A stretch of 64,000 bases of DNA from Glandiceps talaboti (Eukaryota > Hemichordata > Enteropneusta > Spengelidae), in the NCBI RefSeq assembly GCF_964340395.1, contig NC_135559.1, positions 13,129,759 through 13,193,758 on the forward strand, given 5' to 3'. Position numbers and translations under genes: made by a program. Below are positions 10,401 to 13,400 of the stretch, piece by piece. Position 1 is the stretch's first letter. Each line of letters starts with the position of its first letter. The notes under the pieces were generated by a model. It saw nothing but the letters and a program-made list of their open reading frames with translations. It ran no database searches and was not told the DNA's origin.

Positions 10401-13400
10401 AATTTATTGGACTAGATTTGTTCTGATACTAATGTAAATAACATCATTTGGATTTGGCAATCAACCTATTTGATTGTGCATAGGTTTATACCTCACAGCT
10501 GACAGCACTAAAAATTTAGGGACAAAATAATTAAAACTACTACTACCGTTAGTAATGACAATTTCAATAAAACTATGGCATCTATAAGTTGTTGCCATGG
10601 AAACCAAAGCAGACTAGATTAGTTCGTAATTTCACACTGCCAAACATTTCAAATAGATATATATGTCAACACAGGCATTGTGAGGGAATATTCCAGACAT
10701 GTCTATAACGATATTGGAAATGTGAATACGTAGAGTACAGTACACGACGTGATATCATTTTGATACATGGAACTGTACGGATCAATTTACATTACATACA
10801 CCAAGACTTGTATAAGTCTGAAAACAACTGGATATCGCATGATTATTGGTTGCAGAATTTTGCACTTGGTGTACAAAAAATTGACAGTCATTGACACGTT
10901 TTGTTTATCGAAATAACGACCACATGGTCATACTCACAATGTTATATAGGTGATTTGTTTTAAACGAAAGTTCCATGAAACAGACATCGTGTATTGTTTC
11001 TGTCCAGAATAATTTACTCATAGACATGTTGAAATATGCTTGCAATGTCTGTGTGCTGACTGAATGTCTTCGTCTTTCTAAGAAGAACTGTTAGGTTAGA
11101 AAATTCCAATAACTGACGACTTACTGATAAATCTAGCAACTGATCTCTGTGGCTGAATTTCATCTTGCCCAAGAAGCCTCTCTGTGAGAGCATAGTTATG
11201 AAGTACCATTTGGCTCGCAGGGCAATAGACTGGCGGAATTGCAAATATGCATTCCTCCGCTCTATTAACATTTCGTCAAATTTCTACAAAAAGCAAAAAC
11301 ATTAGTGATGACAAAAATAAAACAAACTAAACTTACAGATAATTCAAGTCGTTCCTCTTTGTGAATAAATTCCATTTTACCAGAGAGTCCCTTCACATCT
11401 AGCATTCTTACAAATAGGATTTTGGCTCGGAGAGCTACCGAACTACGAAATACCCGATATGCATCTCGTCTCTGAGCCAGCATATGGTCAAATTTCTGGT
11501 AAAAAGATTAAAGAAATGTGTTTTTTTTTCAAATGCACATAATTTCACGCTGAACCGTTTTCTGTTGATGTGATACTACTGATCATTATGATGACGCAAG
11601 ACGTTGCTAAAAATACACCAAGACTAACCCTGAGGCACGTTGTTTAGACAAAACGTTTTGTTATTCACCACTGAAAAAGATGACTCGCATAGTTAAATCA
11701 CACCATTGCAGTACTGCCAGGGTGCAAGAATGCCTAAATAAAAGCCTGTTGTATATGCATGTACTATTTTTACGTTAACAAAGTGATCTTTGACCTATGA
11801 CCTGACCCCAAGTTATCTTGCATTGCTCAATGTAAGTCAAATCGATCGTACCATTATGCCAGTGAGTATTTGCATTTCTAAATACCATGGCCAATTGTAA
11901 ATGTCCAATTTCAATAACTTTTTGCAGAGGTCAATCATAACTGATGTGCACTAAGTAATGCTAAATGAAAACTCAAGTTCACCAATGAAGTGAGAATTCG
12001 TGGCCACCATCTTGGCTTTTGGTGAGTCACCTCACAATTCCGCCTTCCCTTGTCCCGGGTCATCCGCGAAAAACTATGATAATTAGTCGTTCATGAACAA
12101 AATGTTTCGAAATGTCCGTGAGCATTTTGTCTATGGAACACGCCCCTGAATTGTGTCCCATTGAGAGCAGCATTAGTAAAGCGCCCTCAGAGGGAATAAT
12201 TAGTTAATGTAACTTTATTGTGAACTTTGACCCACTTCAGTACTCTACTACCGTTTGATTTAGCCAGTTACCTTTTGCATCTCACCTGGTACTGTCATTT
12301 AAATCTCAACAACCCTCCCTCCCTTTTCACAAAATGTTTAGGAGGGTAGATTCTTTTGAGCTTTTTTTAAAGTAGTTTATACAGATATGTATTATTCCAG
12401 TTTGTTACTGTAAACGTGGTAGTGGCCATTTTTGTAGATCATCGCAAATGATAGAATTTTTGTCATATCAATGTTACTTTTCACTAATGTTAGAGGGCGC
12501 TGTCTATAAAAAAATATATACAGTATTATGTACGATACATTTCAAGTCATTCAGTTATACGATTAATTACTGAGATGACAATGTATAACAGGCCTTTTTC
12601 TAGATTGTCAACAACACACCTAGTACTTGGTTATGTTACCAAAAATGGAATTTTGCACTTTTTGTGTAACTAAATTCAAAAGCAAGGAGAACTGAAGATT
12701 TTATGCAATTTCAATTGTGACTTGGTATTCACTAAATTTTGATACACATTTTAGATTTACATCAAGGACCGTGAAATGTTAGATTCTCATTTTATGAAAA
12801 ACAATATTGTATTTTAAGGTTGTCAAATCACGACATCCCTTATTCCCCCAATGGTATCACCTCTAGTCAGAAGTACAATATGAATGGATCAAACTATTGT
12901 TTCAATGGGGGATGACTAAATTTTGAAAAAAGAAATACACAAAAATTTAGTTGTCACACATGTCATCCCCAATTTCCTTCAATGGTGCCACCTATAGTTA
13001 AAAGAACAATAGGAATGGACCAAACCATTGATTCAATAGGGATGATTAAAATCTACACCAAAGTCTGTGAATATTGAAAGAGTATGTAAGACCTTGACAA
13101 CAGCTTTCAGGTTCTTGATTTCATGTTTGATGGATAGATACCGAACTCTGGAATCCTGGTACAGTCTGGTAATCTCTTCGGCATTACCAATGCTGAAATA
13201 ATCAATATTCCCCATCAATGAGACTTGCATGAATTAACAGGAAATGTCAGACCTATTTCTGCCTTTAGTACACTTGTATTGATAACTGCTATCAACTTAA
13301 AGGAAAATTCCAGCCAGACTTATTTCTAGACAAAATTCTGATCACCATGTTTTTTGCATGACACCAGCATTCTCTTTTAAGAATCAATGTATCACCAAAG

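Follow-up and report, generated by a model that had tools for sequence, protein, structure and literature searches.

The SMC6 gene of the hemichordate Glandiceps talaboti (family Spengelidae) probably carries a functional, tandem-duplicated pair of mutually exclusive exons, A and B, whose joining to each other would be sterically hindered. Between the constitutive exons 20 and 23, a transcript would include either B or A, yielding two SMC6 proteins of equal length. SMC6 is part of a DNA-repair motor, SMC5/6, for which a single form of SMC6 is generally assumed. If the reading is true, this motor comes in two variants, and splicing reaches into the core of an SMC ATPase that is essential. The window analysed here is a stretch of 64,000 nt (positions 13129759-13193758 of the contig) from a genome of 590 Mb in 47 contigs. 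The features of the locus, all on the minus strand, are as follows.

1378..34703, minus strand: SMC6 gene from ATG to stop, 25 exons including both alternative exons (gene model against the annotated protein P0001)
13093..13192, minus strand: constitutive exon 20, which precedes the pair (gene model, leave-one-out donor scores)
11337..11495, minus strand: exon 21, or B, the divergent version, 159 nt, phase 0
11284..11336, minus strand: intron between B and A, 53 nt, GTAAGT...TTTTTGTAG, the shortest of the 24 introns
11301..11307, minus strand: best match to the branch-point consensus, CACTAAT (predicted by consensus score)
11125..11283, minus strand: exon 22, or A, the canonical version, 159 nt, phase 0, present in the annotated isoform X2
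5261..5413, minus strand: constitutive exon 23 (VQPTQGES...LSGGE...FDVFM), which follows the pair

The isoform with A translates into 1104 aa identical to residues 4-1107 of P0001, the annotated Glandiceps talaboti SMC6-like isoform X2. Its orthology to SMC6 follows from the match of the C-terminal 207 aa to the human protein 9lwi_A at E = 2.2e-65, and the domain PF02463 (SMC_N) is recognised whichever exon is used (42.8 and 40.7 bits, cut-off 40). Human (9lwi) and budding-yeast (7ylm) SMC6 are orthologues that have the LSGGE signature in common with the Glandiceps protein; unlike them, Glandiceps possesses two versions of the segment spanning the neck end and the C-lobe in one gene.

The original prediction described two homologous 159-nt, phase-0 exons with intact splice sites and without stops, about 29/53 identical by eye. 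Both statements were reproduced: the exons and their intron exactly fill positions 11125-11495, each exon is preceded by an AG acceptor and followed by the donor GTAAGT, and the computed alignment gives 29/53 identical residues and 94/159 identical nucleotides. B lies upstream of A on the minus strand, with 53 nt between them. Neighbouring homologous exons of equal length and phase with intact splice sites are what defines a candidate mutually exclusive pair. The two copies agree at 33/53, 39/53, and 22/53 of the first, second, and third codon positions, respectively. In a tblastn search within the window, A finds B at E = 3.3e-16, and no third copy rises above noise; a whole-genome search with the B protein (E <= 1) finds B and A themselves and no other place. 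An assembly artefact or collapsed haplotypes can be ruled out, as the copies stand side by side on one contig and have only 94/159 nt in common.

A was expected to be closer to vertebrate SMC6, and this is borne out. In phmmer comparisons of the C-terminal 207 residues with human 9lwi_A, the version with A scores 223.5 bits versus 208.9 bits with B, and against a human SMC6 sequence A has 22/53 identities and B 18/53. A profile of 64 other animal segments likewise prefers A (77.7 versus 57.3 bits). Against the yeast proteins the order is reversed: B is ahead of A with budding-yeast Smc6, 7ylm_B (96.1 versus 88.6 bits), and with yeast Smc5, 7ylm_A (46 versus 39.5 bits). The idea that B is an older, yeast-like version was nevertheless set aside: the higher yeast scores were treated as chance, since the animal profile favours A.

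The intron between the copies is exceptional within the gene. The other 23 introns measure 248-5711 nt (the next shortest are 248 and 335 nt), and all 24 together have a median of 971 nt; these sizes refer to the SMC6 of Glandiceps talaboti alone. By a simple consensus score, the best branch-point match, CACTAAT, places the predicted branch adenine 35 nt from the B donor, with 18 intron bases downstream, and an intron of 53 nt leaves no possibility of a branch point beyond +52. One study takes a donor-branch point distance of less than 50 nt as its sign of potential steric interference (PMC5740500), and another proposes a steric threshold of about 50 nt (PMC7969005). Since the predicted distance of +35 falls below this limit of about 50 nt, B-A joining should be hindered: there would be too little room for the snRNPs to occupy both the 5′ splice site of B and the branch point of A.

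The human exon clusters in which steric interference is considered possible (PMC5740500) and exons 4a/4b of OGDH (PMC7969005) are homologous in-frame exons like the SMC6 pair, with a predicted donor-branch point distance below 50 nt and alternative versions of one protein segment. OGDH relies on distant branch points (PMC7969005), whereas in SMC6 the intron has 53 nt and the predicted branch point is near its 3′ end. SMC6 also differs from these systems in that its exclusivity is deduced from sequence. This kind of system is thus already known, and SMC6 is, as far as seen, new to it. The original prediction knew of no mutually exclusive exons in SMC6, in agreement with the open-licence papers matched, whose titles and abstract beginnings revealed none; nor did such titles and abstract openings mention a pair like A/B in SMC6, SMC5, other SMC genes, or hemichordate genes.

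Splice-site strength was ranked with a weight matrix built from the 24 sites of the SMC6 gene itself. The A acceptor is 7th of 24 and the B acceptor 18th; among the donors, that of A is 15th and that of B 17th. From these ranks we infer that A, which has the better acceptor, would likely be used by default, with B as the form under regulation. The flanking sites score low, the donor of exon 20, AAG|GTCTTA (13087-13092), and the acceptor of exon 23 each having the lowest score of 24; the donor is far from the consensus, and its junction is nevertheless required by the annotated protein. A mixture of U2 and U12 introns does not account for exclusivity, as A and B have the same donor, GTAAGT. The U12 donor is GTATCCTT/ATATCCTT, and the GTCTTA of exon 20 does not fit it.

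The segment was then sought in other animals by comparing SMC6 proteins (the best 120 of 1540 matches, one representative per 90% cluster). Among these 120, a single protein, P0003 of Ptychodera flava, scores higher with B than with A. Its segment shares 25/53 residues with B and 24/53 with A; the rare residues in common are three with B (I26, V29, and R30) and two with A (E8 and L49). A tree joins it to B at 88/76, unstarred. The annotated Ptychodera flava SMC6 has a single copy of the segment, which appears weakly B-like.

A second in-register copy was found in two of the best 120 of 1540 matches. One is the protein of Anneissia japonica, a crinoid, in which both copies have 53 residues and the canonical copy comes first; the other is that of Pinctada imbricata, a pearl oyster, in which the divergent copy, of 55 residues, precedes one of 53. 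As in Glandiceps, the copies are in register with the A/B exon, one being canonical and the other divergent. In contrast to Glandiceps isoform X2, both copies are found in one predicted protein, and the divergent copy is second in Anneissia japonica, while the divergent B is first in Glandiceps. The crinoid second copy is closer to A than to B (45.1 versus 34.7 bits) and to the A-type profile than to the B profile (47.7 versus 41.1). The oyster first copy matches best an unnamed protein (69) and then two bivalves (63 and 62), with Glandiceps B (61) and A (60) barely behind the bivalves. These profile scores lean towards separate duplications. On the other hand, the crinoid second copy has 20/53 residues in common with Ptychodera versus 17/53 with its own first copy, which disfavours separate duplications, and four of the residues common to it and Ptychodera are rare in outgroups. 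In a 23-row tree that left out the oyster copy no branch was starred, and AU tests of four groups rejected none (p 0.066-0.36). Protein searches with the exon B region alone gave 11 candidates and no match, and a query made by joining the Ptychodera segment to the crinoid second copy returned its two source proteins alone.

The extra copies of the crinoid and oyster are perhaps independent duplications, and a single older origin of the copies, foremost in hemichordates and crinoids, may also be considered. It is a tentative and rather doubtful generalisation that this exon of SMC6 is a recurrent site of tandem duplication in a hemichordate, a crinoid, and an oyster, and thereby a repeatedly evolved switch of the motor head; that such a switch might be set by tissue or stage is speculation.

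The location of the exon in the protein gives the pair its potential meaning. The original prediction placed the segment at the neck and the first strands of the C-terminal lobe, and AlphaFold2 models agree, showing that the exon codes for the last part of the neck helix, which binds the kleisin, and for the two strands before the signature motif. In P0001, which has A, the helix covers residues 907-970 and the strands 973-980 and 985-992; in the weakly B-like Ptychodera P0003, the corresponding elements are 905-968, 971-978, and 983-990, so the segment looks alike in both models (pLDDT of the block 931-990 is 84-88 for P0001 and 80-90 for P0003, with a whole-model pTM of just 0.34 and 0.33, respectively). 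In both models the exon begins within the helix and ends within the second strand. Since the exon ends lie inside these elements, inclusion of two copies or of none should, judging from the models, disrupt the fold.

In S. pombe Smc6, the residues L964, L965, L968, E969, L972, and R975 stabilise complexes with Nse4, with L965, L972, and R975 being specific for it (PMC7297730). By spacing, and with R975 anchored to the invariant arginine at exon position 9, which is supported by the budding-yeast alignment, we would assign L968, E969, L972, and R975 to exon positions 2, 3, 6, and 9, and L964 and L965 to the constitutive exon preceding the pair. By this assignment, the Nse4-binding neck positions of S. 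pombe appear conserved in Glandiceps SMC6. A and B both have F2, D3, L6, and R9 at these places, and hence both isoforms should bind the kleisin, keeping the Nse4-binding positions of the neck helix. The changes in B are densest at exon positions 26-37. The claim that the isoforms differ at the core of the motor is upheld with one qualification: the helix end and the C-lobe strands are affected, and the kleisin-contact positions are unchanged in B. The isoforms should differ mainly at the helix end and in the two strands leading to the ATPase signature motif, and the A/B switch would tune head engagement or the ATPase rate rather than kleisin binding. It would represent a natural variant pair with 24 differing residues near the signature motif and preserved kleisin-contact positions, and would allow a direct test of how the C-lobe is coupled to ATP hydrolysis and to head engagement.

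Exclusivity of the two exons is not the sole reading. A and B might often be included together, giving an SMC6 longer by 53 residues, or the pair might be a cassette with mixed use; this seems unlikely, and it survives better than the other alternatives. The length of each exon, 159 nt, is divisible by three, so the reading frame survives double inclusion as well as skipping, enforcement by frameshift and NMD does not apply, and the openness to two copies or none counts against enforced exclusivity. The Anneissia japonica and Pinctada imbricata models, which unite both copies, speak against strict exclusivity in those animals, and the Glandiceps record is itself called "isoform X2" and its cluster has 2 members, which makes a second isoform probable. 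Opposed to this are the 53-nt intron with its predicted branch point at +35, the second copy, which by the models would be expected to interrupt one helix and one strand in the ATPase head, the annotated isoform X2 with A alone, and the single copy in Ptychodera; moreover, the crinoid and oyster proteins with both copies are predicted gene models.

It is still less probable that exclusivity is set by repressor proteins or by competing RNA pairings instead of the short intron. Mechanisms of this type are described for other exon pairs, and the flanking donor and acceptor, each the lowest of 24, leave room for regulation, but the short intron is sufficient as an explanation.

Whether B is maintained was judged from the divergence between the copies. 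The dN of A versus B is 0.33-0.37, and dS is 1.28 (LWL85) or 5.05 (ML) and undefined by NG86, so that synonymous sites are near saturation. A plain neutral simulation, in which 0/20,000 runs reached 29 identities, was discarded as setting the bar too low, since A is itself under constraint, and it was replaced by a model in which the A protein is fixed and B drifts from A to the observed 34 differences at codon positions 1+2. Under this null, 1891/20,000 runs were stop-free; of these, 1.3% reached 29 identities, none attained the BLOSUM score seen in the real pair (149), and 0.4% kept all seven tested residues, which are those invariant among 22 outgroup representatives. All criteria were jointly reached in 0/20,000 runs, and the neutral-B null is rejected. 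Both B and A retain 7/7 of the invariant residues; of the nearly invariant ones in the same 22 representatives, B retains 12/15 and A 13/15, and with another choice of representatives B keeps 8/8 invariant columns. The view that B is divergent yet intact, implying selection, therefore stands, and as far as the test can tell B has been under selection at the protein level since its origin and has not decayed. That B is a relic, once used and now rarely or never spliced in, is thus highly improbable: its acceptor ranks 18th of 24 versus 7th for A, and the annotated isoform uses A, but the open frame, intact sites, 7/7 invariant residues, and the constraint test all argue against it. Taken with the selection on B, the 53-nt intron and predicted branch point at +35 support the mutually exclusive architecture originally proposed, and the exon ends inside structural elements and the weakly B-like Ptychodera segment also fit it.

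Elsewhere in the window, six other long ORFs gave no Pfam match above cut-off, and a minus-strand open frame at 57045-57428, possibly an exon of another gene, matches PF06760 (DUF1221) at E = 0.022 with 14.7 bits, under the cut-off of 25. Several exon boundaries of SMC6 are repeated as minisatellites. The acceptor of exon 5 forms an array at 27276-28106 (43-bp unit, 13 near-copies), the donor of exon 14 one at 19067-19303 (34-bp unit, 7 copies), and the donor of exon 17 one at 15525-15936 (63-bp unit, 6 copies), each count including the true boundary. Exon/intron-boundary arrays in amphioxus are termed 'mirages' (PMC3087553); among the literature matches listed, no report concerns such arrays in hemichordates. 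A 33-bp tandem array at 48355-48614, whose unit, read by eye on the minus strand, contains the donor-like sequence GATCAG|GTAAAT, is perhaps another boundary array.
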